A stretch of DNA of 64,000 nt, from NCBI RefSeq assembly GCF_000719555.1, contig NZ_JOGX01000010.1, positions 62,001 through 126,000 of the forward strand. The letters run 5' to 3'. This document shows, in pieces, positions 6,875 through 60,868 of the stretch; the stretch's first letter is position 1, and each line of letters opens with the position of its first letter. The position numbers were made by a program, and so were the translations under genes. Below the pieces are notes generated by a model. That model was given only the letters and a program-made list of their open reading frames with translations, ran no database searches and had not been told where the DNA came from. This DNA is from Streptomyces sp. NRRL F-5727. Its GTDB lineage: Bacteria; Actinomycetota; Actinomycetes; Streptomycetales; Streptomycetaceae.

Positions 6875-7511
6875 CCGCCGCGCCGGCCGGCGTCTCGCCG
6901 ACGATCGGGGCCAGATAGCGGAACAGCACCTTCTTCAGCTCGGCCACGGCCGCGTCCCGCACCGGGCCCTCGGGGGCGGCGACGATCAGCGCGAGCCCGC
7001 CCTTGAAGACGGCGAAGGCCATGTCGGCGACCCGGTCCAGCTCGGCGGCGCCGAGCGGCGGGACGGCCCGCGCGCCGATCGTCTCGCGGACCTGGGAGAG
7101 CAGCGAGGCGTGCAGCTCGTCGTGCTCCTCGGCGATCCGGCCGGGGACCTCGGAGCCGTGCATCAGGGCGAGGAAGGCCGGGTTGAGGCAGTTGAACTCG
7201 ATCATCGGGTCGAGCACCGCGTCGATCAGCTCCGGCAGCGGCAGCGCCATGTTGGCCGGGGTGAAGACCTGGCCGTGGGTCTCGCGCATCTGCTGGATGA
7301 GCCGGCCGCCGAGCTCGATCGCGATCGCTTCCTTGTTCGGGAAGTACTGGTAGAGCGTGCCCGGCGAGACCTGGGCCTCTCGGGCGATCGCGTTGGTGCT
7401 GGTGGCCGTGTAGCCGTTGGCGCAGAACACGTCGGCGGCCGCCTGGAGCAGCTGGGAGATGCGGCGCTCGCCGCGGGCCTGTCGGCGGCGCGGCTTCGGG
7501 TCCTCGGGCAT
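6852..7511 (-). CDS. TetR-family repressor of the adjacent MMPL exporter
   Basis: A 219-residue regulator. Residues ~15-60 form a TetR DNA-binding domain (QAAADVFCANGYTATSTNAIAREAQVSPGTLYQYFPNKEAI), and the remainder is an all-helical ligand domain. AGGAGG lies 13 bases before ATG 7511. It is divergent from the MMPL gene, and two matching dyads lie in the shared intergenic region, so autoregulation and control of the exporter are likely. The inducing ligand cannot be inferred. Confidence 0.9.
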   Translation of the reverse strand: MPEDPKPRRRQARGERRISQLLQAAADVFCANGYTATSTNAIAREAQVSPGTLYQYFPNKEAIAIELGGRLIQQMRETHGQVFTPANMALPLPELIDAVLDPMIEFNCLNPAFLALMHGSEVPGRIAEEHDELHASLLSQVRETIGARAVPPLGAAELDRVADMAFAVFKGGLALIVAAPEGPVRDAAVAELKKVLFRYLAPIVGETPAGAAVTTAPTH

Positions 7512-7545
7512 GGCTGTCCCCAGTCCTCCTCGATACGCGTTGACA

Positions 7546-7596
7546 AATGCGAGAGGTCGCTCGCATTCTTGGATAACGCGAGCGATCACTCGTGTT
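7546..7596. promoter_or_regulatory. Two tandem TetR operators
   Basis: AATGCGAG-N6-CTCGCATT (7546-7567, perfect) is followed by AACGCGAG-N6-CTCGTGTT (7575-7596, one mismatch). Both have the same architecture, with centres 29 bases apart, between the tetR and MMPL genes. Confidence 0.75.
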
Positions 7597-7673
7597 TGCC
7601 AGTCTATGGCAATGGGCGGCCCCCGCGACCTGCCGGGAAGCGAGAGCGGGGGCCACGGTGAAGGGGACACCGC

Positions 7674-9953
7674 GTGATGTCCGAAGTCAAGAAAACACCC
7701 CCCGCACCGGGCGGGGGAGCGGGGGAAAGCCCTGGTGGGCGCCGGGATCCGGGCGGGGGATGGACGCGGTTCGTGACCGCGCGGCCCCGGCTCACCCTGC
7801 TCGTCGCCCTCGTCCTCACCGCCCTCGCGGTCCTCGCCGGCGGCGGTGTCGCCGACCGGATGGGCAGCGGCGGCTGGGAGGACCCGGCCGCCGAGTCCAG
7901 CTACGCCACCGGGGCCCTGGAGCGGGAGTTCCCCGGCTCCCAACCGAACGTGCTGCTCCTCGTCGACGCCGGGAAGGCCGGGGTCGACGACCCCGCCGTG
8001 GCCGCCGAGGCCCGCCGGCTCACCGCACGGCTCGCCGCCGAGCCCGGCGTCGAGGGCGTCGGCTCCTACTGGGCCGGCGGCTCGCCCGCCCTCCGCTCCG
8101 AGGACGGCACCAAGGCCGTCGTCGCCGCCCGGATCGCCGGCGAGGAGAAGGCCGCCGGCGACATCCTCGACCGCATCGCCCCCGCCTACCGGGGCACCCA
8201 CGGGCCCGTCGAGGTCACCCTCGGCGGCGGCCTCGCCGTCCGCCACGAGATGCAGACGATCATCCAGGAGGACCTGCTGCGGGCCGAGCTGATCGCCCTG
8301 CCCGTCACCCTGGTCCTGCTCGTCATGGTCTTCGGCAGCGCCGTCGCCGCCCTGCTGCCGCTCGGCGTCGGCATCGTCGCCATCCTCGGCACCAACGCGG
8401 TGCTGCGCGGGATCACCGAGTTCACCGACGTCTCCGTCTTCGCGCAGAACCTCACCACCGCGCTCGGCCTCGGACTCGCCATCGACTACGCCCTCTTCGT
8501 CGTCCGCCGCTACCGCGAGGAACTGGCCGCCGGAGCCGAGCCGCCCGCCGCCGTCCGCACCACCCTGCGCACCGCCGGGCGGACCGTGCTCTTCTCCGCC
8601 CTCACCGTCGCCGTCTCGCTCGCCGCCATGCTCGTCTTCCCGCAGTACTTCCTGCGCTCCTTCGCCTACGCGGGCATCGCCGTCGTCCTGCTCGCCGCGG
8701 CCGCCGCCCTCACCCTGCTGCCGGCCGCCCTCGTGCTCCTCGGCCACCGCGTCGACGCCCTCGACCTGCGCCGGCTCCTCCGGCGCCGCCGGGCCCCCGC
8801 GCGGGACACCGGGGCGGCCACCGGCTGGTCCCGGGCGGCCGACCTGGTGATGCGCCGGGCCCCCGTCTTCGCCGTCCTCACCACCGCCGGCCTCGTCCTG
8901 CTCGGACTGCCCTTCCTCGGGGTGAAGTTCGGCACCGCCGACGACCGGCAGCTGCCCGCCACCGCCACCTCCCGGATCGTCCAGGAGGAGCTCCGCGCCG
9001 GCTTCCCCGGCGACCCCGGCGGCAGCCTCACCGTCCTCGCCGAGGGCCCCGCCACCCCCGCCGAGTACGGCGCCTACCGCGAGCGCGTCGCCGCCCTCGA
9101 CGGCATCGTGCGGGTCGACGGCCCCGTGGTCTCCGGCACCGGCGCGGACACCCACGCCTACTACAGCGTCGTCCCCGACGGCCCGGCCACCGGCGAAGGG
9201 GCCCAGCGCGCGGTCGGTGAACTGCGCGCCGCCGACGCCCCCTTCACCACCTCCGTCACCGGCCAGGCCGCCGTCCTCGTCGACTCCAAGGACGCCATCG
9301 CCGACCGGCTTCCCTGGGCCGCCGGCATCATCGTCCTCGTCACCCTGCTGCTGGTCTTCCTGCTCACCGGCAGCGTCCTCATCCCCGTCCAGGCCGTCGT
9401 CCTCAACGCGCTCAGCCTCACCGCCATGTTCGGCGCCGTCGTCTGGGTCTTCCAGGACGGACACCTCTCCGGCCTCCTCGGCTTCACCGCCACCGGCGAC
9501 ATCGAGACGACCCTGCCGGTCCTCATGTTCTGCGTCGCCTTCGGCCTCTCCATGGACTACGGCGTCTTCCTGCTCTCCCGCATCAAGGAGGAGTACGACA
9601 CCACCGGCGACCACGAGGGCGCCGTCCGCTTCGGCCTCGCCCGCACCGGCGGGCTCATCACCGCCGCCGCCGTCATCCTCGCCGTCGTCATGGTCGCCAT
9701 CGGCACCTCACGGGTCACCAACACCAAGATGCTCGGCCTCGGCGTCGCCCTCGCCGTCCTCATGGACGCCATGGTGGTCCGCAGCCTCCTCGTCCCCGCG
9801 GTCATGAAGCTCACCGGCCGGCTCACCTGGTGGGCCCCCGGCCCGCTGCGCCGCTTCCACGACCGCTTCGGCATCAGCGAGTCCGGGCAGCCGCCCGCCG
9901 CCGCGACCGACACCCCCGAGGAGAGACGCGAACCCGTCGGCGCCCGCGGCTAG
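7674..9953 (+). CDS. MMPL/RND-superfamily membrane transporter
   Basis: A 759-residue MMPL-type transporter with two similar halves. A short Gly/Pro-rich N-terminus leads to helix TARPRLTLLVALVLTALAVLAGGG, a large extracytoplasmic domain, a block of five or six helices, a second extracytoplasmic domain, and a second helix block containing FGLSMDYGVFLLSRIKEEY. The conserved GLGLAIDYALFVVRRYREE of the first half carries the proton-relay aspartate. AAGGGGAC precedes GTG 7674; an ATG follows directly at 7677. Substrates of such exporters include lipids and drugs; none can be named here. Likely repressed by the divergent TetR protein. Confidence 0.93.
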   Translation: MMSEVKKTPPAPGGGAGESPGGRRDPGGGWTRFVTARPRLTLLVALVLTALAVLAGGGVADRMGSGGWEDPAAESSYATGALEREFPGSQPNVLLLVDAGKAGVDDPAVAAEARRLTARLAAEPGVEGVGSYWAGGSPALRSEDGTKAVVAARIAGEEKAAGDILDRIAPAYRGTHGPVEVTLGGGLAVRHEMQTIIQEDLLRAELIALPVTLVLLVMVFGSAVAALLPLGVGIVAILGTNAVLRGITEFTDVSVFAQNLTTALGLGLAIDYALFVVRRYREELAAGAEPPAAVRTTLRTAGRTVLFSALTVAVSLAAMLVFPQYFLRSFAYAGIAVVLLAAAAALTLLPAALVLLGHRVDALDLRRLLRRRRAPARDTGAATGWSRAADLVMRRAPVFAVLTTAGLVLLGLPFLGVKFGTADDRQLPATATSRIVQEELRAGFPGDPGGSLTVLAEGPATPAEYGAYRERVAALDGIVRVDGPVVSGTGADTHAYYSVVPDGPATGEGAQRAVGELRAADAPFTTSVTGQAAVLVDSKDAIADRLPWAAGIIVLVTLLLVFLLTGSVLIPVQAVVLNALSLTAMFGAVVWVFQDGHLSGLLGFTATGDIETTLPVLMFCVAFGLSMDYGVFLLSRIKEEYDTTGDHEGAVRFGLARTGGLITAAAVILAVVMVAIGTSRVTNTKMLGLGVALAVLMDAMVVRSLLVPAVMKLTGRLTWWAPGPLRRFHDRFGISESGQPPAAATDTPEERREPVGARG

Positions 9954-10503: not shown

Positions 10504-11418
10504 CTACAGACCGCAGGAGCGGAGGTAGTCGCGGGTGCGCAGCGCGATCGGGAAGGGCGCGTCCGGCTCGCACGGGTACATGTCCTGCTCCACGATCGCG
10601 AAGAGCTCCACGTCCAGCGCCGCCGCGGCCGCGAGCACCGGCTCCAGGGCCGGCACCCCCGCCGGCGGCTCGCACATCACCCCCCGCGCCACCGCCGGGC
10701 CGAACGGCAGGCCCTCGGCCCGCACCGCCGCCAGCACCGCCGGATCCACCTGCTTCAGATGGAGGTAGCCGATGCGCTCCCCGTAGCTCTCGATCAGCTT
10801 GACGCTGTCCCCGCCCGCGTACGCGTAGTGCCCGGTGTCCAGACAGAGCGCCACCGCCTCCGGATCGGTGGCGTCCAGGAAACGGGTCACGCTCTCCTCG
10901 TCGTCGAGATGGGTGTCGGCGTGCGGATGGACCACGATCCGCAGCCCGTACCGCTCCCGCACCTCCCGGCCCAGGCGCTCCGTCAGCGCGGTCAGATCCC
11001 GCCACTGCCCCGCCGTCAGCACCCGGTCCTCCAGGACCTCGCCGGTCCTGTCGTCCCGCCAGAAGGACGGGATCACCACCAGATGCCCCGCGCCCATCGC
11101 CTGCGCCAGCGCCGCGTTCTCCGCGACGTGCGCCCAGGTCCGCTCCCACACGGCGGGACCGTGGTGCAGCCCGGTGAAGACCGTGCCGGCCGACACCCGC
11201 AGCCCCCGCCGCGAGGTCTCCTCGGCGAGCAGCGCCGGATCGGTGGGCAGATAGCCGTACGGACCCAGCTCGATCCACTCGTAGCCGGCCCCCGCCACCT
11301 CGTCCAGGAACCGCTGCCACGGCACCTGCCGGGGATCGTCGGGGAACCACACCCCCCAGGAGTCCGGGGCGGAACCGATCCGGATGCGGGCGGGCGACGG
11401 CGGCGACGGCTTCGTCAT
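10504..11418 (-). CDS. Sugar phosphate isomerase/epimerase (IolE/IolI-like)
   Basis: A 304-residue TIM-barrel protein of the xylose isomerase-like family. It begins IGSAPDSWGVWFPDDPRQVPW, and metal-binding residues are visible in VVHPHADTHLDDEE, LCLDTGHYAYAGGD and GYLHLKQVD. In inositol catabolism this family supplies inosose dehydratase (IolE) or inosose isomerase (IolI). The divergent position beside iolCBDA makes an inositol role likely, but which reaction is not decided by sequence alone. ATG 11418 follows AAGGTGG. Confidence 0.8.
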   Translation of the reverse strand: MTKPSPPSPARIRIGSAPDSWGVWFPDDPRQVPWQRFLDEVAGAGYEWIELGPYGYLPTDPALLAEETSRRGLRVSAGTVFTGLHHGPAVWERTWAHVAENAALAQAMGAGHLVVIPSFWRDDRTGEVLEDRVLTAGQWRDLTALTERLGREVRERYGLRIVVHPHADTHLDDEESVTRFLDATDPEAVALCLDTGHYAYAGGDSVKLIESYGERIGYLHLKQVDPAVLAAVRAEGLPFGPAVARGVMCEPPAGVPALEPVLAAAAALDVELFAIVEQDMYPCEPDAPFPIALRTRDYLRSCGL

Positions 11419-11487
11419 GCCAGCCACCTTGACCGCGCCCCGGAGCAGCGTCAAGACACCCGCCGGACCCACGGGGCATCCGTCCGA

Positions 11488-11533
11488 ATGTCCGGACATA
11501 TCGTTGACACGCCGCCCGGCGGAGGGCTAGACC
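11488..11533 (+). promoter_or_regulatory. iolC promoter with palindromic operator candidate
   Basis: The 12-base palindrome ATGTCCGGACAT (11488-11499) lies five bases before a TTGACA -35 hexamer (11504-11509); TAGACC (11528-11533) is a plausible -10 at 18-base spacing. The palindrome could bind the inositol-responsive regulator, which is not encoded in the window. Confidence 0.45.
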
Positions 11534-11567
11534 TGGGAAGGGACACCGGAGTCGAGAGGTGGCACGG

Positions 11568-12587
11568 GTGGAGTCGGAGCCGTACGACCTGATCACCATG
11601 GGGCGGCTCGGCGTGGACCTCTACCCCCTCCAGAGCGGCGTCGGACTCGACCGGGTCGAGACCTTCCGGCGCTTCCTCGGCGGCTCCCCGGCCAACGTGG
11701 CCGTCGCCGCCGCCCGCCTCGGCCGGCGCACCGCCCTCGTCAGCCGCACCGGAGCCGACGCCTTCGGCGGCTACCTCCGGCGCGAGCTCAAGGAGTTCGG
11801 GGTGGACGGCCGCTGGGTCACCGAGGTCCCCGACCTCCCCACCCCCGTCACCTTCTGCGCCCTCTTCCCGCCCGACGACTTCCCCCTCACCTTCTACCGC
11901 CGCCCCAAGGCCCCCGACCTGGAGATCCACCCGCACGAGCTCGACCTCGACGCGATCCGCGCCGCCCGCGTCCTGTGGACCACCGGCACCGGGCTCAGCG
12001 AGGAACCCAGCCGCGCCGCCACCCTCACCGCCCTGCGGGCCCGCGCCGGCCGCGCCCCCACCGTCCTCGACCTCGACTGGCGGCCCGCCTTCTGGTCCGA
12101 CCCGGCCACCGCCCGCCCCCACTACGCCGAGGCCCTGCGACACGCCACCGTCGCCGTCGGCAACGCCGAGGAGTGCGAGGTCGCCACCGGCGAACGCGAC
12201 CCGGAGGCCGCCGCCCGCGCCCTCCTCCGCCTGCTCGCCCCCGGCACCCCCGGCGACCCTGCCGGCGTCCCCCTCGCCGTCGTCAAACGCGGACCCGAAG
12301 GCGTCCTCGCGCTCGCCGCCGACGGGCGCCGCGCCGCCGTCCCCCCACTGCCCGTCGACGTCGTCAACGGCCTCGGCGCCGGGGACGCCTTCGGCGGCGC
12401 CCTCGTCCACGGCCTCCTCGCCGGCCTCCCCCTGGAGGACACCCTCCGCCGCGCCGGCGCCGCCGGCTCGATCGTCGCCGGCCGGCTGGCCTGCGCCCCC
12501 GCCATGCCCGACGCCGCCGAGATCGACCGCGCCCTCGCCGCCGGCTCGGGCACCCTCCCCCAGCGTCCGGAGGACGACCCCCGGTGA
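11568..12587 (+). CDS. iolC: 5-dehydro-2-deoxygluconokinase
   Basis: Phosphorylates 2-deoxy-5-keto-gluconate in myo-inositol catabolism. The ~339-residue protein is a PfkB-type sugar kinase with N-terminal FLGGSPANVAVAAARLGRRTALVSRTGADAFG and C-terminal catalytic GLGAGDAFGGALVHGL, where the Asp is the base. GTG 11568 is preferred because GAGAGG lies eight bases upstream; GTG 11559, also in frame, lacks a close ribosome site. It is the first gene of an operon and its stop overlaps the iolB start as GTGA. Confidence 0.93.
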   Translation: MESEPYDLITMGRLGVDLYPLQSGVGLDRVETFRRFLGGSPANVAVAAARLGRRTALVSRTGADAFGGYLRRELKEFGVDGRWVTEVPDLPTPVTFCALFPPDDFPLTFYRRPKAPDLEIHPHELDLDAIRAARVLWTTGTGLSEEPSRAATLTALRARAGRAPTVLDLDWRPAFWSDPATARPHYAEALRHATVAVGNAEECEVATGERDPEAAARALLRLLAPGTPGDPAGVPLAVVKRGPEGVLALAADGRRAAVPPLPVDVVNGLGAGDAFGGALVHGLLAGLPLEDTLRRAGAAGSIVAGRLACAPAMPDAAEIDRALAAGSGTLPQRPEDDPR

Positions 12588-13399
12588 CCACCCGCCGCCT
12601 CCACCTCCCCGCCGGGACCGCCGCGCGGGGGCCGTACGCCCTGGACATCGACCCCGGGACGGCCGGATGGAGCCGCTCCGCACTCCGCGTCCTCGACCTG
12701 CCGCCCGGCGCTACTCACAGCTTCGACAGCGCGGATGCCGAATGGGTGGTGCTTCCCCTCGCCGGGGGCGGTACCGTGCGCGTCGACGGGGAGTTCTTCG
12801 AACTCGGGGGCCGCGCCGACGTGTTCGCCTCCGTGACCGACTTCGTCTACGTACCGCGCGACGCCCACGCCCAGATCGCCTCCGGCGCGGGAGGCCGCTT
12901 CGCTTTGGCAGGAGCGAACTGCGAGCGACGACTCCCCGCCCGCTACGGCCCCGCGCCGGAGGTTCCCGTGGAGGACCGCGGCAGCGGCGACCGCGCCCGC
13001 CGGGTGCGGAACTTCGCCTCCGCCGACGCCTTCCCCTGCGACCGGCTGATCGCCGTCGAGGTGATCACCCCCGGCGGCCACTGGTCCTCCTACCCGCCGC
13101 ACAAGCACGACGAGCACCGCCCCGGGACCGAGTCCGTCCTGGAGGAGATCTACTACTACGAGATCGCGGACCCGCGCGGCTACGCCTACCAGCGGATCTC
13201 GCCCTCGCGGGCGGGCGGCGCCGACCTCCTCGCCGAGGTCCGGCACGGCGACGCCGTCCTCGTCCCCGACGGCTGGCACGGCCCCTCCATCGCCCAGCCG
13301 GGCCACGACCTCTACTACCTCAACGTCATGGCGGGCCCCGGCCCCGAACGGGAGTGGAAGATCAGTTTCCACCCCGACCACACGGAGGGATACGCATGA
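12584..13399 (+). CDS. iolB: 5-deoxy-glucuronate isomerase
   Basis: A 271-residue double-cupin enzyme converting 5-deoxy-glucuronate to 2-deoxy-5-keto-gluconate, the IolC substrate. Metal ligands are visible in YPPHKHDE and the downstream Glu of EEIYYYEI, with VLVPDGWHGPS in the second half. The start GTG 12584 overlaps the iolC stop by four bases, and the end overlaps iolD by ATGA, so translation is coupled throughout. Confidence 0.93.
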   Translation: MTTRRLHLPAGTAARGPYALDIDPGTAGWSRSALRVLDLPPGATHSFDSADAEWVVLPLAGGGTVRVDGEFFELGGRADVFASVTDFVYVPRDAHAQIASGAGGRFALAGANCERRLPARYGPAPEVPVEDRGSGDRARRVRNFASADAFPCDRLIAVEVITPGGHWSSYPPHKHDEHRPGTESVLEEIYYYEIADPRGYAYQRISPSRAGGADLLAEVRHGDAVLVPDGWHGPSIAQPGHDLYYLNVMAGPGPEREWKISFHPDHTEGYA

Positions 13400-15258
13400 G
13401 GCTCACCGTGGCCCAGGCCCTCGTCCGCTTCCTCGCCGCCCAGTACACCGAACGCGACGGCGAACGGCACCGGCTGATCGCCGCCACCTGGGGCGTCTTC
13501 GGCCACGGCAACGTCGCCGGGATCGGCCAGGCGCTGATCGAGGAAGACGGCATGCCCTTCCACCAGGGCCGCAACGAACAGGCCATGGTGCACGCCGCCG
13601 TCGGCTACGCCCGCCAGCGGAACCGGCTCTCCGCGCACGCCGTCACCACCTCCATCGGCCCCGGCGCCACCAACCTCGTCACCGGCGCCGCCCTCGCCAC
13701 GATCAACCACCTCCCGGTCCTGCTCCTGCCCGGCGACACCTTCGCCACCCGCCCCGCCGACCCCGTCCTCCAGCAGCTCCAGGTGCCGCACGCCGGCGAC
13801 GTCTCCGTCAACGACTGCCTGCGCCCCGTCTCCCGCTCCTTCGACCGGATCGTCCGCCCCGAGGCCCTGATCCCGGCCGCGCTGGAAGCCATGCGGGTCC
13901 TCGCCGACCCGGCCGCCACCGGCGCCGTCACCCTCGCCCTCCCGCAGGACGTGCAGGCCGAGGCGTACGACTGGCCCGCGAGGTTCTTCGCCGAGCGGAC
14001 CTGGCGGATCCGCCGGGCCTCGCCCGACGAGGCCGAACTCGACGCGGCCGTCGCGGCGATCGCCGGGGCCGCCCGGCCGCTGATCGTCGCCGGCGGCGGC
14101 GTCCGGCACAGCCGCGCCGAGGAGGCGCTCGCCGACCTCGCCTCGCTCACCGGCATCCCCGTCGCCTCCACCCAGGCGGGCAAGGGCGTCCTGCCCCACG
14201 GCCACCCCCAGGACGTCGGGGCCGTCGGCCACACCGGTACCGCCGTCGCGAACCACCTGGCCCGCACCGCCGACGTCGTCCTCGGCGTCGGCACCCGCTG
14301 GACCGACTTCACCACCGCCTCCGGAACCCTCTTCGGCCACCCCTCCGTCCGCTTCGTCAACCTCAACACCGCCGCCTTCGACGCGCACAAACAGACCGCC
14401 CTGCCGCTGGTCGCGGACGCCCGCGAGGGGATCGAACAGCTCCACGCGCTCCTCGACCCGCACCACGTGCCCGCCCACTACGTCCACGAGTACGCCGAGG
14501 AGAAGCTGCGCTGGGAGGCCCGCGTCACCGCCGCCTACGCCGCCCCCGACGAGGACGCCCGCCCCACCCAGACCCAGGTCCTCGGCGTGCTCGACACCCT
14601 GGTCGACGCCGACGACATCCTGATCAACGCCGCCGGCTCCCTCCCCGGCGACCTCCACAAGCTCTGGCGGACCCGCTCCCGCGACCAGTACCACGTCGAG
14701 TACGGCTACTCCTGCATGGGCTACGAGATCCCCGCCGCGATTGGCGTCCTCCTCGCCGCCCCCGGCCGGCCCGTCTGGGCCCTCGTCGGCGACGGCACGT
14801 ATCTGATGAACCCCACCGAGATCGTCACCGCGGTCCAGGAACGCCTCCCGCTGAAGCTGGTGATCCTCCAGAACCACGGCTACGCCTCCATCGGCGGCCT
14901 CTCCGAGGCCGTCGGCGCCGAGCGGTACGGCACCGACTACCGGCTGCGGGCCGCCGACGGAGGCTTCACCGGCCCCCCGCTCCCCGTCGACCTCGGGGCC
15001 AACGCGGCGTCCCTCGGGATGCGGGTGCTGCGCCCCCGCACCATCCGTGACCTGCGGGAAGCCCTCGCCGACGCCCGGGCCGCCACGGATCCCACATGTG
15101 TCTACGTCGAGACCGAAACGGCAGACAGTGTGTCGGGCCCGCCCCCGGCCCAGGCGTGGTGGGATGTGCCCGTGGCCGAGATCTCGACCCGCCCGTCGGC
15201 GGTCAAGGCCCGCGAGGAGTACGACCGGCACGTCACCGCCCGACGCCGCCATCTCTGA
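13396..15258 (+). CDS. iolD: 3D-(3,5/4)-trihydroxycyclohexane-1,2-dione acylhydrolase
   Basis: A 620-residue thiamine diphosphate-dependent enzyme that opens the ring of the inositol-derived diketone. It has the three-domain acetolactate synthase-like layout: PYR domain with FHQGRNEQAMVHAA containing the catalytic Glu, a central domain, and a PP domain with the ThDP/Mg motif GDGTYLMNPTEI. Its start overlaps iolB by four bases; iolA follows after 23 bases. Confidence 0.94.
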   Translation: MRLTVAQALVRFLAAQYTERDGERHRLIAATWGVFGHGNVAGIGQALIEEDGMPFHQGRNEQAMVHAAVGYARQRNRLSAHAVTTSIGPGATNLVTGAALATINHLPVLLLPGDTFATRPADPVLQQLQVPHAGDVSVNDCLRPVSRSFDRIVRPEALIPAALEAMRVLADPAATGAVTLALPQDVQAEAYDWPARFFAERTWRIRRASPDEAELDAAVAAIAGAARPLIVAGGGVRHSRAEEALADLASLTGIPVASTQAGKGVLPHGHPQDVGAVGHTGTAVANHLARTADVVLGVGTRWTDFTTASGTLFGHPSVRFVNLNTAAFDAHKQTALPLVADAREGIEQLHALLDPHHVPAHYVHEYAEEKLRWEARVTAAYAAPDEDARPTQTQVLGVLDTLVDADDILINAAGSLPGDLHKLWRTRSRDQYHVEYGYSCMGYEIPAAIGVLLAAPGRPVWALVGDGTYLMNPTEIVTAVQERLPLKLVILQNHGYASIGGLSEAVGAERYGTDYRLRAADGGFTGPPLPVDLGANAASLGMRVLRPRTIRDLREALADARAATDPTCVYVETETADSVSGPPPAQAWWDVPVAEISTRPSAVKAREEYDRHVTARRRHL

Positions 15259-54376: not shown

Positions 54377-54501
54377 GCGATGCTCCGGGCCGCGTCGCGG
54401 GCGGGGCGGCCGACGCCGATGAGGGTGGCGGAGGCGGGGCGGAAGCCGGTGCACCAGATGATCGCGTCGGCCTCGGCCGTGGTGCCGGCGGGCCATTCCA
54501 C
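54377..54501 (-). pseudogene. arsO-like monooxygenase fragment
   Basis: Two blocks match the intact arsO gene in the same order and strand: 54377-54440 corresponds to 59811-59874 and the following part to 54501 corresponds to ~59991-60058, each with only a few mismatches. The 123 bases between the blocks in arsO are missing, and both deletion borders carry GCGGGGC, so slippage at a 7-base repeat probably removed them. Only about 40 codons remain; no start or stop. Confidence 0.85.
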
Positions 54502-54836
54502 TTGTAGTGGTCCGCGATGCCATGACCCTCGTCGGTGAGGCCGACGGCTGGGTCAGGGCCCGGAGCACTTCTTCGGTCGGCTTCGTCAGCTCTCCCTCAC
54601 GGCGTGCGCGGGCGGTTCACCATCGGCCGGACCGTACGGAGGGGGAGGGCGGCGCGCGCACGTGCGCAGGGGCGCGTGAGCTGCACCGTGGTCCGTGCGA
54701 CCGGCAGGACGGTGCCAGGGGTGGTTCATGCCAGCGGGTGCGGGTTCCGCGCGGGCGGGTGGGTGTCGAGACTCGACGGTGACCGCAGTGTGCGCCGGCA
54801 TGGGCGGCGTACGCGTCCCGTCGAAAGAGAGCGCAC

Positions 54837-55448
54837 GTGTCCCCAGTACCCCGGGCCAAGCTGCTGAGTCGGGCGATCCTCACGGGGACGTCCGTCTATC
54901 TCGCCGGCCAGGTGGTGCACACGGTCCTGAACACCAACCGGTGGCCGTTCTGCACCTTCAACATGTTCGCGTACCACAAGCGTGACCAGGCGCTGCAGAT
55001 GCGCGTCCGGCTCTTCACGGACGACGGCGAGGCCGTCGGGCCCACCGATCCGTGGTCGCTGCTGCCGCTGGAGTTCTTCCGGGTGGTGTCCGTCCTGGAA
55101 CGGGTCTTCCACGCGCAGGACGACGTGGAGGTCCGGGACCGGTTCTGCCGACAGGCACTGGAGCGGTTGAACCGGCGCGGGTGGCGGGCCTGGGACGAGG
55201 TGAAGGCGTCGTTCTCGGCGGGGGCCGGGCGGCGGTTCGTCGCGATGGAGCTGTACTTCGTCGAGGTCGACTTCCGGACCTGCTCGCCCTTCGACCGCAC
55301 GGAGGTGACGTCGGCCGAGCTCGTGCACCGGTACGACCCCGAAGGCGTCGTGGCCGATCAGCCGGAGGCGCCCCTGTGGCGGTTCGTCGAACCCCTCGTC
55401 GAAGAGACCGAGGAAGGGAAGAAGGAGGAGGCGGGGCATGCTGCCTGA
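54837..55448 (+). CDS. Membrane-anchored protein paired with an HTTM gene
   Basis: A 203-residue protein of no recognised family. An N-terminal hydrophobic segment (ILTGTSVYLAGQVVHTVL) is followed by a soluble part: NTNRWPFCTFNMFAYHKRDQALQMRVRLFTDDGE, then an alpha/beta-looking region with AMELYFVEVDFRT, and a charged Glu/Lys tail. GTG 54837 follows GAAAGAGAG. Its end overlaps the HTTM gene by 11 bases, so the two are likely made and act together. Confidence 0.75.
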   Translation: MSPVPRAKLLSRAILTGTSVYLAGQVVHTVLNTNRWPFCTFNMFAYHKRDQALQMRVRLFTDDGEAVGPTDPWSLLPLEFFRVVSVLERVFHAQDDVEVRDRFCRQALERLNRRGWRAWDEVKASFSAGAGRRFVAMELYFVEVDFRTCSPFDRTEVTSAELVHRYDPEGVVADQPEAPLWRFVEPLVEETEEGKKEEAGHAA

Positions 55449-56313
55449 GATCACCGGGGCGCGTCAGCGCCTCGCACTGGCCCGGCTCACCACCGGCCTG
55501 GCGATCCTGAACACCCTCTGGCACCTCCCGCCCGGCGACGCCCTCGTCGACGAGTGGAGCCGTAAGGAGGAGGGCCAGGACGGCCGGCCCTCCGGGCGGC
55601 TGAGCGCCGAGCAGTACGAGGCCCTGCGACGGCTCGCGTTCGTGTCGACGGCCGCCTGGACGCTCGGTGCCGAGAGCAAGGCCCTCAAGTTCGCGGCCAA
55701 TGCCTCGTTCGCCGCCGTGCAGCGGCATGTCGCGCAGTTCGACCAGCGGGCCTGGAACTACAACTCCAACCTCAACGTCTACCTGCTTCTGCTCTCCCTG
55801 ACCGACTCGCGCGGCAGTCTCGCCGAAGCCGTCGGCGAGGGAGCGGACGACGGCACGGGCGACGGCGCGGACGGCGGGGGACCGTCGCCCGACGTCGCCA
55901 CCGCCGTGCTGCTCGCCATGCGGCTGTACTACGGCTGCCTCTACTTCCAGTCGGGGCTCTCCAAGGTGCTGCTGAGCGGGCCCGCCTGGGCCGACGGCCG
56001 TACCCTGCGCGGCAGCTGGGCCGAGCTGGGCAACCGTGCGGGCAAGTGGCTCAGCAGGCGGCCGATGACCGTGGCGGCCGCCGCCAGTGCCGCCACGCTC
56101 GCCTTCGAACTCCTCTTCCCCGCCGCACAGATCGCGCTGCGCAAGCACCCCCGTGCCGTGGGGCTGTCCTCCGTCGCCTTCCACGCCTCCATCAAGGCGA
56201 CGATGGGCATCTCCTTCTGGCATCACGCCGTCCACGCCCTGCCGCTGTTCGTCCTCGACCCGGGTGCCGAACGGCACACGGCACGCCTCCTGCGTCCCTT
56301 CCGGAAGCGCTGA
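55438..56313 (+). CDS. HTTM-domain (vitamin K carboxylase-related) membrane protein
   Basis: A 291-residue protein with about six hydrophobic segments. LRLYYGCLYFQSGLSKVLLSGPAWADGRTLRGSW is typical of the HTTM domain, related to the membrane part of vitamin K-dependent gamma-carboxylase; ELLFPAAQIALRKHPRAVGLSSVAFHASIKATMGISFWHH fits the same family. Bacterial HTTM proteins are largely uncharacterised. Translationally coupled to the preceding gene and separated from the microcin-like genes by a terminator. Confidence 0.8.
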   Translation: MLPEITGARQRLALARLTTGLAILNTLWHLPPGDALVDEWSRKEEGQDGRPSGRLSAEQYEALRRLAFVSTAAWTLGAESKALKFAANASFAAVQRHVAQFDQRAWNYNSNLNVYLLLLSLTDSRGSLAEAVGEGADDGTGDGADGGGPSPDVATAVLLAMRLYYGCLYFQSGLSKVLLSGPAWADGRTLRGSWAELGNRAGKWLSRRPMTVAAAASAATLAFELLFPAAQIALRKHPRAVGLSSVAFHASIKATMGISFWHHAVHALPLFVLDPGAERHTARLLRPFRKR

Positions 56314-56376
56314 ACGGAGACCTCGACAGAGCGCTGACAGAGCGTTCACAGAGCGCCTTACCCGCCCTCCGCCGGC

Positions 56377-56401
56377 CCCCCCGAGCCTTCCGCTCGGGGG
56401 G
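56377..56401 (+). terminator. Terminator between the HTTM gene and the microcin C-like operon
   Basis: CCCCCCGAGC (56377-56386) pairs with GCTCGGGGGG (56392-56401) over a 5-base loop; CTTTCGCGTTT follows. Confidence 0.85.
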
Positions 56402-56551
56402 CTTTCGCGTTTCCAGGACGGCTTTTCCAGTGTTATCCGATTTCACCTCCGGGCAGCTTCCTGCCGGGTGCAATTGCTGCCAACCGGAGGGGCTTCCGCG
56501 AGCTCCGGCCACAGGACATCATTAACTCGTCGCCAACAAACGGAGGCGACA

Positions 56552-56568
56552 CCGGGAGGAAATCCCGG
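56552..56568 (+). promoter_or_regulatory. Small hairpin in the leader of the 19-codon gene
   Basis: CCGGGA-GGAAA-TCCCGG, 29 bases before the mccA-like start; it may protect or regulate the mRNA leader. Confidence 0.45.
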
Positions 56569-56597
56569 GAAACCTCGAAATCACTCAGGGAGTCATC

Positions 56598-56657
56598 ATG
56601 CTGAAGATCATCAAGGTTGTCGCCGCCCGCGCCGTCTCCGGCCGCGCCTTCAACTAG
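56598..56657 (+). CDS. mccA: Microcin C-like precursor peptide, 19 residues ending in Asn
   Basis: The gene encodes MLKIIKVVAARAVSGRAFN and ends in tandem TAG TAG codons. AGGGAG lies five bases upstream of the ATG, so it is well placed for translation. In microcin C systems the precursor is a short unmodified peptide whose C-terminal asparagine is adenylated (or cytidylated) by MccB; the final Asn is invariant. The MLKI start, basic Lys/Arg residues and 19-residue length fit the longer precursors known from Gram-positive bacteria. It is followed by a stem-loop, an MFS exporter and a ThiF/MccB-like enzyme. Too short for usual gene finders. Confidence 0.85.
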   Translation: MLKIIKVVAARAVSGRAFN

Positions 56658-56669
56658 TAGTCGTCGCCT

Positions 56670-56704
56670 CGCGGGCCGGGAGCGACCCCGGTTCCCGGCC
56701 CGCG
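56670..56704 (+). terminator. Stem-loop between mccA-like and exporter genes
   Basis: CGCGGGCCGGGA (56670-56681) and TCCCGGCCCGCG (56693-56704) form a perfect 12-bp stem with an 11-base loop, 13 bases after the first TAG. In Escherichia coli a similar stem-loop after mccA causes partial termination, so that far more precursor message than enzyme message is made. Confidence 0.8.
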
Positions 56705-56797
56705 GCAGCGGCGGCTCCCCGCAGTGCCCCTGCTTCATCCAGCTTTCCCCCAGCTTCCCTCCCCAGGTTCAGAGTTCGTCCGGAGGCGGAACGGCCC

Positions 56798-58114
56798 ATG
56801 GTGCATACGGAAAAGAAGAACGCGGAACCGTCCGATGTGAAATCCATCTGGCGTGACTCCAGATTCCGCCGCCATTTCGCCGGAATGTGGGTCAACGCCT
56901 TCGGGAACGGCGTCTTCAACATCGTCCTTCCCCTCCTCGTCTTCGACCGGACCCATTCCTTCGCCGCGATGGGCGGCGTGGCCCTCGCCACCCAGCTGCC
57001 CAAGGCGTTTCCCGGACCCCTCGTCGGCGTGCTCGCCGACCGCCGGTCGCCCCGCGCGATGATGCTGTGGGCCTATCTCCTCCAGGCCGTCCTCGTCCTG
57101 ACGATCCCGCTCGCCGCCGGCGCGTCCGTCGCCGCCGTCTGGCTGATCGGCCTCATCGCGTACGCGATGAACACCATCGACCTGTTCGCCCGCACGGCCA
57201 CCTTCGTCACCATCCCCCGCGTGTACGGAGACCGCCGCAGCAAGGTGAACGCGGCCTTCGCCAGCGCCTGGACGTCCGCCTCGGTACTCGGCCCCGCCGC
57301 CGGCGGGTTCCTGCTGCAGGTCACCTCGGCGGACGTGCTGATGCTGCTCGACAGCCTCACGTTCCTGGCCATCGCCGCCGTCGTCCTCACCATCGGTGTC
57401 CCGACCACGCCGGGGAACGCCTCCACCGCCCCGATCCGGAAGAGCCTCCTCGAAGGCCTCACCTGGTTCCGCAGGGCCGAGGGCGCCGGGCGGTTCATGA
57501 GCTCGATCGCCGCCGTGGCCGTCGTGTACGCGCCCCTCGGCACGCTGGCCGTCTTCGCCGTACGGGACGTGTACGGCGACGGGCCCACCGAGGCAGGCAT
57601 CGTGACGAGCGCCGCGGGCGCCGGCCTCTTCCTCGGCACCCTGATCTGCCAGCGCCTCGCCGACCGGCCCAAGGAACCCGTGATGCGGCGGGCCGCCCTG
57701 TGGATGGCCTTCGGCGCGGCCCTCTTCGCCGTCCCCTCCTGGATCGGTGCCACGGCGGCGATGCTCGTCGTGAACCTCTGCGGCATGGTCTACGCGGTCT
57801 CCCGCTCCAACCTCATCCAGGAGCGCGTCCCGACGGAGCACCTGGGCCAGACGATGACCGCCGTGCAGTCCCTGGAATCCGCCGTCCAGCCGGTCTCCGT
57901 CGCCGTGGTGAGCGCCGTGCTCGCCCTGGCCGGACCGCCCGGAGCGGCTGTCTTCCTCACCGTCTTCTCGGTCGTCGCGGCCCTGCTCGTCCTCGGTGGC
58001 GGCCGGCTGCTGGCGCCCCGTACCGAGACCGCCGCCCCCGCTCCGACCACCTCCCGCTCCCCGTCCACCCTGAACGCGACCGCCTCCGCGGCGGCCCACG
58101 GAGGCACCCGATGA
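56798..58114 (+). CDS. mccC: MFS exporter (MccC-like)
   Basis: A 438-residue, 12-helix MFS protein of the MDR type: WVNAFGNGVFNIVLPLLVFDRTHSFAAMGGVALATQLPKAFPGPLVGVLADRRSPRAMMLWAY, then FVTIPRVYGDRRSKVNAAFASAWTSASVLGPAAGGFLL (motif C). It has a short charged N-terminus and an Ala/Thr/Ser-rich C-terminus. In microcin C clusters MccC is an MFS exporter that secretes the mature drug. GGAGG lies upstream of ATG 56798; its end overlaps the MccB-like gene by ATGA. Confidence 0.87.
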   Translation: MVHTEKKNAEPSDVKSIWRDSRFRRHFAGMWVNAFGNGVFNIVLPLLVFDRTHSFAAMGGVALATQLPKAFPGPLVGVLADRRSPRAMMLWAYLLQAVLVLTIPLAAGASVAAVWLIGLIAYAMNTIDLFARTATFVTIPRVYGDRRSKVNAAFASAWTSASVLGPAAGGFLLQVTSADVLMLLDSLTFLAIAAVVLTIGVPTTPGNASTAPIRKSLLEGLTWFRRAEGAGRFMSSIAAVAVVYAPLGTLAVFAVRDVYGDGPTEAGIVTSAAGAGLFLGTLICQRLADRPKEPVMRRAALWMAFGAALFAVPSWIGATAAMLVVNLCGMVYAVSRSNLIQERVPTEHLGQTMTAVQSLESAVQPVSVAVVSAVLALAGPPGAAVFLTVFSVVAALLVLGGGRLLAPRTETAAPAPTTSRSPSTLNATASAAAHGGTR

Positions 58115-59193
58115 CTTCGATCAACCTGCGGCAGGGACTCTCCGTCCTGCAGCCGGGCAAGGACCTCATGATCGGCCTCATGCCGCCCGCGGCGCTGGCC
58201 ATCGAGGACGCCCCCGACTACCTGCGGCACGTCCTGTCCGCCTTCTCCCGGCCCGTCCCCGAGGCGGAGGCGCTCGCCACCGTGACCGCCCACTCCGACC
58301 TGGGCGTCGAGGAGGCCGGGCAGCTGCTCCACGAGCTCCGCTGCGCCGGCGTGCTCACCACGCACTGGGTCGACCGGGAGGAGCGCTACAGCCGCCACCG
58401 CCTCTACTTCGGCGTCGCGGGCTTCGAGGGCGACCCGATGGCCGTCATCCGGAACAGCACCGTCGGCCTCATCGGCGCGGGTGGCATCGGCAGCAACGTG
58501 GCGATGATGCTGGCCGCGGCGGGCGTCGGCCGGCTGGTGGTCGCCGACGCGGACGTCGTGGAGACCACGAACCTCACCCGCCAGTTCCTCTACACCGAGG
58601 GCGACGTCGGCACCCCGAAGGTCGAGGCGCTGGCCCGCCGCGTCGCCGAACGCAACACCGAGGTCCGCGTCGACGTCGTCAACGACGTCTTCGACGGCCC
58701 CGACTTCGCCGTCCGGCACTTCGCCGACTGCGACCTCGTCATCCTCTCCGCCGACACCCCGCAGGACGTCCACCGCTGGCTGAACGAGGCGTCGGTCCGC
58801 ACCGGCGTCCCCTACACCTGCGCCGGCTACCTCGACACGATGGGCATCGTCGGCCCGCTCGTCGTGCCCGGCCGCACCGCCTGCCTGGAGTGCCACTTCG
58901 CCGACACCGGCCTGGCCTCGTTCAACGGCGGCGACCTGGAGGCCACCGACTTCACCGACTACAACCAGGCCTACCAGGCCCCGAGCTACGGCCCCCTCAA
59001 CGCCATGGTCTCGGCCGCCGCCGTCAACGACACCCTGCGCTTCCTCCTCGGCCTGCCGGCCAGGTCCCTGGGCACCAAGCTGCTCCTCGACTCCATCGAG
59101 TACGGCGTCCAGACGGAGGAGTACGAGCGGAACACCGCCTGCGGCTCGTGCGGCACGGGCGCGCGCGAGGGGGCCTTGAGCGGCGTGGCCTAG
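58111..59193 (+). CDS. mccB: ThiF/E1-like adenylating enzyme (MccB-like)
   Basis: A 360-residue E1-superfamily enzyme, close to the 350 residues of MccB. The N-terminal ~100 residues (LRQGLSVLQPGKDLMIG...LLHELRCAGVLTTHWVDREERYSRHRLYFGV) resemble the MccB peptide-clamp winged-helix domain. The adenylation domain has GLIGAGGIGSN (122-127), DADVVETTNLTRQFLYTEGDVG, and four Cys for structural zinc: C258LEC261 and C344GSC347. MccB joins ATP to the precursor Asn to form a nitrogen-phosphorus linked peptidyl-AMP. Coupled to the exporter and 1.5 kb downstream of the precursor gene. Confidence 0.9.
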   Translation: MTSINLRQGLSVLQPGKDLMIGLMPPAALAIEDAPDYLRHVLSAFSRPVPEAEALATVTAHSDLGVEEAGQLLHELRCAGVLTTHWVDREERYSRHRLYFGVAGFEGDPMAVIRNSTVGLIGAGGIGSNVAMMLAAAGVGRLVVADADVVETTNLTRQFLYTEGDVGTPKVEALARRVAERNTEVRVDVVNDVFDGPDFAVRHFADCDLVILSADTPQDVHRWLNEASVRTGVPYTCAGYLDTMGIVGPLVVPGRTACLECHFADTGLASFNGGDLEATDFTDYNQAYQAPSYGPLNAMVSAAAVNDTLRFLLGLPARSLGTKLLLDSIEYGVQTEEYERNTACGSCGTGAREGALSGVA

Positions 59194-59197
59194 CGCT

Positions 59198-59237
59198 CTG
59201 AGGGCCCGTGGCCGCCGACGGGGCCACGGGCCCTCAG
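59198..59237. terminator. Bidirectional terminator between mccB-like and GNAT genes
   Basis: CTGAGGGCCCGTGGCC (59198-59213) pairs perfectly with GGCCACGGGCCCTCAG (59222-59237), covering the GNAT stop codon (59234-59236). Confidence 0.85.
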
Positions 59238-59743
59238 CCGCGCAGCGGAAGCGCCATCTCCAGTTCGCGCTGGCTCTGGTTCAGCGGGTACGGCTTCTTT
59301 TGGCCGGTCGGCACGAAGCCGCGACGCCGGTAGAAGGCGATGGCCCGGCGGTTCTCCTCGTGGACGAGAAGGACGAGGCGCTCGGCCGCCGTCTCCTCGC
59401 GTGCCCAGCGCACGATCTCGTCCAGCATGAGCGTCGCCACGCCACCGACCGGGCCTCGGTGGTCCGGACGCAGCCAGACGCCGACCAGCTTGGCCGTGTC
59501 CGGCGCGGGCAGGAATCCGTTCATGACCCCGACCCATTCCCCTTCGGAGCCGACGGCCGCGACACCGATGTTGCCGGGGCTCGCGGCCCGCGTCGTGCGG
59601 AACTGCCACTCGGAGTCGGGGTGGGCGAGCGCCTCGTCGATCGTCTCCAGGTAGGCGAGCGGGGTGTCCCGGATCATCTCCAGGCGTATCGCCCGGTACG
59701 CCGGCCAGTCCTCCGCCTGTACGCGGTGCAGGGTGTAGTCCAT
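59234..59743 (-). CDS. GNAT N-acetyltransferase (possible MccE-like immunity)
   Basis: A 169-residue GNAT protein. The acetyl-CoA-binding loop region is KLVGVWLRPDHRGPVGGVATLMLDEIV, and LVHEENRRAIAFYRRRGFVPTGQ is the typical C-terminal motif. In microcin C producers, MccE or RimL acetylates the amino group of the processed aminoacyl-nucleotide and gives self-immunity. Position beside the mccB-like gene makes such a role plausible, but the gene is convergent and could be cotranscribed with arsO, and generic GNATs are common. Confidence 0.85.
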   Translation of the reverse strand: MDYTLHRVQAEDWPAYRAIRLEMIRDTPLAYLETIDEALAHPDSEWQFRTTRAASPGNIGVAAVGSEGEWVGVMNGFLPAPDTAKLVGVWLRPDHRGPVGGVATLMLDEIVRWAREETAAERLVLLVHEENRRAIAFYRRRGFVPTGQKKPYPLNQSQRELEMALPLRG

Positions 59744-59794
59744 GGCGGGCGATCTTCGCAGGAAGCCGCAGCTCTGGCCAGGCTTGTTCTCTGT

Positions 59795-60868
59795 TCAGCG
59801 CAGGAGTTCGGCGATCGCGCGGGCGGCGTCGCGGGCGGGGCGGCCGACACCGATGAGGGTGGCGGAGGCGGGGCCGGTCCAGTCGCCGTAGCCGAGCAGG
59901 TGGAGGCGGGGTTCGCCGAGCGCCTGGGTGCCGGTGGTGGGGATGTGGCCGCGGGGGCCGCGCAGTCCGAGCGGGGCGAGGAGGGACAGGGCGGGGCGGA
60001 AGCCGGTGCACCAGATGATCGCGTCGGCGTCCGCCGTCGTGCCGTCGGGCCATTCCACGCCGGTCGCGGTGAGGCGGGTGAACATGGGCTGGGGTTTGAG
60101 GAGGCCGGCGTCGCGGGCCGCGCGGACCGGGGGGACGGCGACGATGTCGCCGAGGGAGGCGACGCCGCCGGTGTCGGTGCGGCCTTCGTCGAGGGCCTTG
60201 CGGCGGGCGGTGGCGTGGTCGAAGAGGGCGCGGCCGTCGATGTCGTCGGCGAGGTAGACCGGTTCGCGGAGGGTGACCCAGGTCAGGTCGGCGTCGTACG
60301 CGAGGTCGGCGGCGATCTGGGCGCCGGAGTTGCCGCCGCCGACCACGATCACGCGCTGTCCGGCGAAGTCGGAGGGGCGCTGGTACTCCACGGTGTGGAG
60401 CTGGGTGCCCCGGAACTCCGTGCGGCCGGGGACGGCCGGGACGAAGGGGCGGGACCAGGTGCCCGTCGCGCTGACGACCGCCCGGGCCCGCCACGTACCG
60501 GAGTCGGTCGCGACGCGGAGGCGTGCGCCGTCGCGGTGGACGCCCGAGACGCGGACGGGGCGGTGGACCGGGAGGTCGTAGCGCCGCTCGTAGTCGGCGA
60601 GGTACGTGACGACGTGGGCGGCGTCGGGGTACGTCTCGCCCGGCTGCGGGGGCATCATGCGGCCGGGGAGGGACGAGTACGCGGCGGGGGAGAAGAGATG
60701 GAGGGAGTCCCAGGTGTGCCGCCAGGCGCCGCCGGGGGCCGTACCGGCGTCCAGGATCACGAAGTCCAGGCCGGCCCGGCGCAGGTGGTAGCCGGCGGCG
60801 AGGCCCGCCTGGCCTCCGCCGATGACGACCACGTCGATGCCGACTTCGGCGGTCTGGTGCTGGGCCAT
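59795..60868 (-). CDS. arsO: ArsO-type flavin-dependent monooxygenase
   Basis: A 357-residue FAD/NADPH monooxygenase: FAD site VVVIGGGQAGLAAGYHLRRAG, NADPH site VIVVGGGNSGAQIAADLAYD, and TGFRPALSLLAPLGL. ArsO genes accompany arsB in the arsRBOCT operons described in Streptomyces arsenic resistance; their chemistry is not settled. Follows acr3 on the minus strand after an 80-base gap containing a hairpin. A degenerate copy lies at 54377-54501. Confidence 0.88.
   Translation of the reverse strand: MAQHQTAEVGIDVVVIGGGQAGLAAGYHLRRAGLDFVILDAGTAPGGAWRHTWDSLHLFSPAAYSSLPGRMMPPQPGETYPDAAHVVTYLADYERRYDLPVHRPVRVSGVHRDGARLRVATDSGTWRARAVVSATGTWSRPFVPAVPGRTEFRGTQLHTVEYQRPSDFAGQRVIVVGGGNSGAQIAADLAYDADLTWVTLREPVYLADDIDGRALFDHATARRKALDEGRTDTGGVASLGDIVAVPPVRAARDAGLLKPQPMFTRLTATGVEWPDGTTADADAIIWCTGFRPALSLLAPLGLRGPRGHIPTTGTQALGEPRLHLLGYGDWTGPASATLIGVGRPARDAARAIAELLR

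Follow-up and report, generated by a model that had tools for sequence, protein, structure and literature searches.

The window analysed here, 64,000 nucleotides of Streptomyces sp. NRRL F-5727 (bases 62,001-126,000 of contig NZ_JOGX01000010.1, in an assembly of 7.95 Mb and 187 contigs), carries a six-gene cassette at 54,837-59,743, from a gene for a 203-residue protein through a gene for a GNAT acetyltransferase. Sequence comparisons give good support to the view that this system belongs to the long-precursor branch of the microcin C type. Peptidyl-nucleotide antibiotics act as Trojan horses directed against an essential tRNA synthetase. The explanation that we prefer, and hold to be rather probable, is that the cassette makes a long-precursor peptidyl-nucleotide of the microcin C type, whose warhead is likely tailored by the products of the first two genes (the pair: the 203-residue protein and a 291-residue membrane protein), whose nucleotide is likely cytidine monophosphate (CMP), and against which the GNAT protein protects. 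The pair is the new point: we infer that the cassette represents a microcin C variant with a previously undescribed tailoring or immunity module.

The MccB-type enzyme and its precursor peptide

A preliminary description of this DNA had proposed that a ThiF/E1-like enzyme encoded here is related to MccB, and this kinship was confirmed by the ranking of solved structures, by profile alignment and by phylogeny. The closest solved structure to the 360-residue enzyme is MccB (3h5a, 3e-41), followed by ubiquitin E1 (6.5e-18) and MoeB (2.3e-17), and Escherichia coli MccB aligns with a profile of 28 relatives over 342 columns that include the N-terminal recognition region (100%, 3.4e-48). The residues R157, K170, D215, C258, C261, C344 and C347 are invariant across 28 aligned rows; from the 3h5a alignment, we take these to be the catalytic and zinc positions of E. 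coli MccB. A tree against the MccB and MoeB/ThiF families, which had been proposed as a check, places the enzyme with the MccBs and not with the sulfur-carrier enzymes. In this tree (57 rows including four of MoeB/ThiF, with a program warning of long branches, that of the gammaproteobacterial locus L019 among them), the window enzyme and seven close enzymes form an 8-row clade (support 100/100), which is nested in a 19-row clade (96/97) with Arthrobacter, Tetrasphaera-type and one gammaproteobacterial enzyme. The E. coli or 7-residue type stands apart at 100/100, and the MoeB/ThiF rows occupy a separate 100/100 branch. Two MccB clades have been described, with precursors of 7-8 and of 17-56 residues (PMC6495379), and by its tree position the window enzyme belongs to the latter, as the preliminary description had suspected.

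The small gene mccA starts with ATG at 56,598, ends with TAG at 56,655-56,657, is preceded by CAGGGAG and encodes, in 19 codons, MLKIIKVVAARAVSGRAFN. A 19-codon open reading frame (ORF) occupies the same position in four other Streptomyces-type loci (L004, L005, L006 and L007), with 16 of the 19 residues constant and 3 varying over the five loci. (L005 is JOFO01000027.1, whose record name, Microtetraspora glauca, looks misassigned.) Because it recurs at the same place with 16 residues unchanged in four other loci, the ORF is no mere product of chance; the scan of these loci listed Asn-ended ORFs only, so that the evidence is the conservation and not the ending. In Arthrobacter and Paenarthrobacter, where the ending was not a search criterion, a 19-codon, Asn-ended ORF, (M/V)LKLKRL(A/T)KRRSKLNFVFN, directly precedes mccB in 6 of 6 loci, two, with ATG starts, recovered by a script pattern and four, with GTG starts, read by eye from the DNA. 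The early proposal of an Asn-ended 19-codon gene with its own ribosome site thus holds, as does the expectation that relatives would carry such an ORF, and the length of 19 residues given there for the Bacillus amyloliquefaciens precursor is correct (PMC12250964). For a Streptacidiphilus locus with a fused enzyme, the precursor candidate is MLKIVKKPVVKTDSIMVHN. A scan of more distant loci for Asn-ended ORFs with ATG and a Shine-Dalgarno sequence picked out a candidate for 16 of 39 listed loci, some of them surely by chance, and found none in Nocardia vaccinii despite a published precursor (PMC9239234), showing that it overlooks real ones.

Directly 3' of the small gene stands a hairpin in 11 of 11 single-domain loci, window included (-29.6 to -41.7 kcal/mol, z -2.8 to -7.4 against mononucleotide shuffles, for stretches chosen by hand); in L007 one base pair of it is changed on both sides. 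In E. coli a terminator lies between mccA and mccB (PMC6495379).

These data bear on two readings in which the enzyme would not make a peptidyl-nucleotide. ThiF-like enzymes of ribosomally synthesized and post-translationally modified peptides that form other products have been reported (PMC12250964, PMC12150305), and the cassette might likewise install an imide, an amide or a ring instead of a phosphorus-nitrogen bond. However, MccB leads the solved structures by about 23 orders of magnitude in E, the enzyme sits with MccBs in the tree, and the Arthrobacter counterparts of the precursor end in Asn without having been selected for it, which makes this reading very improbable. The probability that we are dealing with a housekeeping MoeB/ThiF sulfur-carrier enzyme beside a chance ORF is negligible. 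Pfam does recognize the shared ThiF domain in the 360-residue enzyme, and the NCBIfam matches listed are ThiF/MoeB models, which score best, and other E1-like models, every one of them below cut-off; but the profile results and the conserved precursor speak against such an enzyme, and the tree together with the solved-structure ranking leads us to reject it.

The pair and its distribution among mcc loci

The gene set originally described (mccA, the exporter gene and mccB) overlooked the two cassette genes at 54,837-56,313, which overlap each other and place the start of the cassette at about 54,829, upstream of the region first delimited. The 203-residue protein is 82-96% identical to its counterparts in L004-L007 and 28-36% identical to a homologue inside the Arthrobacter mcc operon, where tblastn finds it in 6 of 6 loci (6e-14 to 5e-8). 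For the membrane protein, plain tblastn gives no match in the Arthrobacter loci; profile comparison of the Streptomyces and Arthrobacter families by hhalign gives 98.8% for the 203-type protein and 95.8% for the membrane protein. The Arthrobacter gene order is mccA, mccB, 203-type gene, membrane protein gene, MFS gene, and the pair thus lies inside the operon, between mccB and mccC.

Both proteins of the pair are predicted to be membrane-linked. The 203-residue protein has no Pfam or NCBIfam family, and its predicted model (pLDDT 76), one N-terminal helix followed by a soluble domain, finds nothing better than E 0.61 in the PDB. The predicted model of the 291-residue protein has the membrane fold of GGCX, the vitamin K gamma-carboxylase, at 12% identity. 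Its K176 is invariant in 29 rows and lies, by end-to-end offsets and without a residue alignment, near the place of the GGCX catalytic lysine, presumably K218. A single 481-residue ORF of L121 (8574-10019) combines the membrane protein with the 203-type protein.

We searched 37 loci, translated in six frames, with hidden Markov models (HMMs), leaving the weaker relatives L041-L071 unscored. All 10 single-domain mcc loci of actinobacteria, counted besides the window, have the pair, against none of the 8 loci with a fused, carboxymethyl-type MccB, whereas a carboxymethyltransferase domain together with MccS is found in 8 of 8 fused loci and in none of the 10. (Uncounted were L072, L076, L090, L113, L118 and L093, the last from the same genome as L005; L073 and L074 were counted once, as L091. 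L040, L019, L102, the 7-residue-type loci and the Nocardiopsis-type loci were scored but belong to neither group.) For the carboxymethyl genes, L013 has a match of 1e-5 at 6,673-8,031, on the opposite strand and 2 kb off. Neither the pair nor carboxymethyl genes occur in L019, in the 7-residue type or in the Nocardiopsis type with a 366-residue enzyme, and the Bartonella locus L040 has a fragmentary mcc with pieces of carboxymethyl genes. The tblastn and profile comparisons of the pair are independent of HMM training, as are the Pfam and solved-structure searches in the MccB-less loci described below.

Among the loci just mentioned, L019 (9992-14983, in a gammaproteobacterial metagenome-assembled genome) has, behind MccB, genes homologous (41% and 44%) to the two that follow mccB in N. 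vaccinii, probably mccD and mccE1, and an MFS gene. The fused-type mcc of genome G193 exists in two equal-scoring copies (L073 and L074), each about 18 kb from a chromosome end in the manner of a terminal inverted repeat.

The window enzyme stops at 360 residues, without a C-terminal carboxymethyltransferase domain, and is 35-48% identical to fused enzymes. MccS was not found in the NRRL F-5727 genome by a search that recovered it in N. vaccinii and G193, and the carboxymethyltransferase domain has weak, generic matches there, the best 1.2e-6 over 120 residues; we have therefore rejected the idea that carboxymethyl genes lie elsewhere in this genome. As the fused domain and MccS are both missing, the cassette is not, by its gene content, of the carboxymethyl-cytidine subtype. 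The absence of MccD and carboxymethyl-cytidine genes noted at the outset is thus correct for the cassette genes and for L004-L007, but the plain conjugate of CMP or adenosine monophosphate (AMP) deduced from it does not follow, since in this branch the upstream pair replaces the carboxymethyl genes. It is decidedly unlikely that mccA, the MFS gene and mccB alone make such a conjugate, with the pair a mere neighbour. Three-gene mcc clusters are known (PMC12250964), and between the pair and mccA stands a hairpin; against this, the block conserved in L007 begins at the pair, and in Arthrobacter the pair is inside the operon.

The pair also occurs away from mccB. In nine distinct places, of which 11-19 kb each were read, no MccB was found in the stretches read. 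A gene for an MccF-like S66 peptidase is present in 7 of the 9 loci, a core like that of asparaginyl-tRNA synthetase (AsnRS) in 7, an MccD-like transferase in 5, and at least one of these in 8. In the five loci L084 and L086-L089, Pfam confirms PF00152 throughout and S66 in four. The S66 protein of L088 has MccF as its top solved matches (9e-46) and matches E. coli MccF at 7e-41, and its AsnRS-like protein is best matched by solved AsnRS chains (4.6e-23). E. coli MccD is matched along its length by the transferases of L084, L086 and L087 (1e-23 to 1e-32), but not by two other methyltransferases, in L088 and L089. Proteins like histidyl- and alanyl-tRNA synthetases (HisRS and AlaRS) and ATP-grasp ligases are also present, in varying sets, in L084-L089, L119 and L121. 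L084 has a full-length AlaRS as well, and by eye L089 and L119 have genes resembling phenylalanyl-tRNA synthetase. From these genes, the loci may be clusters that produce microcin C-like aminoacyl-nucleotides independently of MccB.

Proposed product, immunity and limits of the cassette

On the preferred account, the MccB-family enzyme would attach a nucleotide (likely CMP) to the Asn that ends the 19-residue peptide; export of the peptidyl-nucleotide would fall to the MFS protein and protection of the producer to the GNAT protein, with the predicted GGCX-fold membrane protein and its 203-residue partner likely tailoring the warhead. By extension from characterized relatives, the nucleotide would be joined to Asn through a phosphoramidate bond, and the product would be exported, be processed in the target and block aspartyl-tRNA synthetase. 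The least certain point is the pair, in which we favour a quinone-using membrane enzyme that would alter the nucleotide or the isoasparagine part. A tailoring role is preferred because the pair takes the place of the cytidine-carboxymethylating genes of sister loci and because it joins MccD- and MccF-like genes in clusters without MccB.

Alternatively, the pair might serve immunity, membrane retention or export in the same antibiotic system and leave the product structure unchanged. The predicted membrane linkage of both proteins would fit this, as would the frequency of S66/MccF-type and class II aminoacyl-tRNA synthetase-like genes in pair loci lacking MccB. Yet a likely exporter and a GNAT are already in the cassette, it is tailoring genes and not immunity genes that are replaced across sister loci, and the fold predicted for the membrane protein belongs to an enzyme; we regard this alternative as unlikely, if still a serious option. 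It is also possible, but quite unlikely, that the pair acts as a GGCX-like carboxylase, driven by quinone, which adds a carboxyl group to the isoasparaginyl-nucleotide warhead. Such an enzyme would be a counterpart, independent of S-adenosylmethionine (SAM), of MccS and the carboxymethyltransferase in sister clusters, and the module would also serve a second, ribosome-free route to warheads of the microcin C type in Streptomycetaceae, in the clusters with AsnRS-, MccD- and MccF-like genes.

The choice of CMP over AMP is a weak one, made by analogy: long-precursor enzymes of B. amyloliquefaciens (PMC12250964), N. vaccinii (PMC9239234) and Yersinia pseudotuberculosis have been reported to cytidylate.

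A number of observations weigh against the preferred account. The long precursors of Hyalangium minutum are adenylated (PMC7157772), which lowers our confidence in the explanation as a whole. The terminator-like hairpin between the pair and mccA (seen in an alignment and a fold, and not among the elements given by a consensus scan) means that the two need not share one transcript. L019 is without the pair although it falls in the same MccB clade as the window, and the single-domain relatives P0010, P0013 and P0015-P0017 stand outside the pair count, their gene context not being covered. The counts also owe something to their models: the pair HMMs were trained partly on scored Streptomyces and Arthrobacter rows, the MccS HMM on L014, L016 and L018, and the AsnRS-, MccF- and MccD-like HMMs on members from L084 and L086-L089; outside this last training set, 3 of 4 loci (L085, L119, L120 and L121) fit the pattern. 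The misfit, L120, has the pair without any Mcc-type gene by HMM. The GGCX likeness is faint in sequence: the membrane protein scores 17 bits for LMF1 in Pfam where 27 are required, is not listed for HTTM (PF05090) at E up to 1, and belongs to a family of which 10 of 29 members match HTTM, at best 5.7e-6; it reaches no Pfam cut-off. Nor does the family align with an ordinary HTTM-like protein encoded in the same genome (hhalign 0.2%), and a search for the GGCX lysine by sequence bridges gave two chance matches and otherwise no GGCX match or residue alignment. A shared fold, itself a prediction, says nothing on function. Finally, the MFS protein has no BLAST match to E. coli MccC, nor the GNAT protein to E. 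coli MccE.

In L120 (9736-11156), by eye, the pair lies near genes resembling those for SAM synthetase, a PfkB-type kinase and a condensation domain.

The early assignment of an MFS exporter after the small gene was upheld by PF07690 and by 37-43% identity to the MFS proteins of Arthrobacter mcc operons. As for the GNAT protein, the mcc-linked copies of the window and L004-L007 share 71-88% identity. The two best copies among 295 Streptomyces genomes are those of NRRL F-5727 and G076 (87%), both beside mcc; other copies among the matches listed reach at most 48%, with some copy at 1e-20 in 192 of the 295 genomes and a second one (40%) in NRRL F-5727 itself. Among the matches listed, the mcc-linked type (87-100%) is confined to the two sampled genomes that have this type of mcc. 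In L019 a GNAT-like C-terminal stretch is fused to MccB (4.1e-6, below cut-off), and MccE acetyltransferases are known from the mcc clusters of E. coli and Y. pseudotuberculosis (PMC9239234, PMC7157772); by analogy with these, self-immunity is the likely function. There is no MccF within the cassette, and two S66 genes lie on other contigs of the genome.

Table 1. Features of the cassette in the window
Feature	Position	Strand	Basis or remark
203-residue partner gene	54837..55448	+	no Pfam/NCBIfam family; kin in L004-L007 and Arthrobacter mcc operon
291-residue membrane protein, GGCX/HTTM-type fold	55438..56313	+	predicted model; ORF overlaps 203-residue partner gene
GC-rich hairpin, terminator-like, between pair and mccA	56376..56410	+	alignment and fold
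mccA, MLKIIKVVAARAVSGRAFN, C-terminal Asn, own Shine-Dalgarno	56598..56657	+	conserved in relatives
Strong conserved hairpin directly 3' of mccA	56660..56712	+	same position in Arthrobacter loci
MFS exporter, MccC role predicted	56798..58114	+	PF07690 7.2e-31
mccB, single-domain nucleotidyltransferase, N-terminal RRE-like region, two CxxC pairs	58111..59193	+	structure match, profile, tree
GNAT acetyltransferase, mcc-linked copy, predicted self-immunity	59234..59743	-	PF00583 4.5e-14

The small gene, the MFS gene and mccB span 56,598-59,193, the last two sharing an ATGA overlap (58,111-58,114). We set the limits of the cassette at the 203-residue gene and the GNAT gene because of the block shared with L007 and the unshared left flanks. 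All blastn pieces longer than 120 bases between the window and L007 (S. phyllanthi) fall within 54,829-59,762, and none outside. Between the window and L004-L006 no such piece extends beyond 54,542 on the left, and the left flanks of L004-L006 have no more than pieces of 54 and 47 bases in common. Arsenic genes to the right of the cassette are common to the window, L004, L005 and L006. To its left, a 69-base arsO fragment (54433-54501) is a direct copy (94% identity) of part of arsO on the right side (59990-60058), and may mark the route by which the cassette arrived. S. roseicoloratus (L006) has about 2.5 kb (11080-13613) between mccB and the GNAT gene without a counterpart in the window. In the Arthrobacter locus L023 (9866-11488), mccB is split over two frames with mccA and the pair kept, and this operon may be broken.

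Distribution and comparison with known systems

Single-domain mcc of this type was found in 2 of 392 Streptomyces genomes (NRRL F-5727 and G076), a third match, G193, being of the fused type, and in a phylum sample of 396 genomes only NRRL F-5727 itself matched at 1e-35. The membrane protein of the pair occurs in 8 of 295 Streptomyces genomes, and the 203-type protein in 5 of 297 genomes of the family and 1 of 306 of the class, NRRL F-5727 counted in each. No mcc was found in viral contigs, and 29 plasmid records with mcc come from Escherichia and Salmonella only (31-32% identity). Actinobacterial mcc as such has already been published for N. vaccinii, Mycobacteroides abscessus and Nocardiopsis (PMC9239234, PMC7157772). 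The Streptomyces cassette and the pair are unnamed in the portions of the literature searched, though single MccBs may figure in Table S1 of PMC6495379, in Serebryakova 2016 and in Bantysh 2014. A word search, whose scope excluded most subscription papers, returned no paper with 'HTTM', 'gamma-carboxylase' and 'bacterial' together, nor 'HTTM domain' in the papers found.

The cassette supplies a defined precursor and enzyme for the peptidyl-nucleotide chemotype, and the pair ties to this chemotype an undescribed membrane module, one part of which is predicted to fold like the vitamin K carboxylase. Should the pair prove to be an enzyme, a GGCX-like reaction would enter the tailoring of bacterial peptide antibiotics. 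Moreover, the pair links microcin C to clusters with MccF- and MccD-type genes but no MccB, which could yield further aminoacyl-nucleotide antibiotics.

Compared with the long-precursor microcin C systems of B. amyloliquefaciens, Y. pseudotuberculosis and N. vaccinii, which make peptide-carboxymethyl-cytidines, the cassette has an MccB of the same branch and a precursor of 19 residues, against 19 in B. amyloliquefaciens and 21 in N. vaccinii (PMC12250964, PMC9239234). Unlike them, it lacks the C-terminal carboxymethyltransferase domain and MccS and has the predicted GGCX-fold protein and its partner. With E. coli microcin C (mccABCDEF) it shares an Asn-ended precursor, a hairpin after the precursor gene, an MccB with a recognition region, an MFS protein and a GNAT. 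It differs in the length of the precursor (19 residues instead of 7), in the branch of its MccB (100/100), in having no MccD, MccE decarboxylase or MccF, and in an exporter and a GNAT without BLAST similarity to those of E. coli. The membrane protein shares a predicted fold with GGCX/HTTM proteins, but with 12% identity and a sequence below the Pfam cut-off. The clusters with MccF-, MccD- and AsnRS-like genes have the same pair as the cassette, an MccF-like S66 peptidase and an MccD-like transferase, but in the stretches read they have AsnRS-like, HisRS/AlaRS-like and ATP-grasp enzymes in place of MccB.

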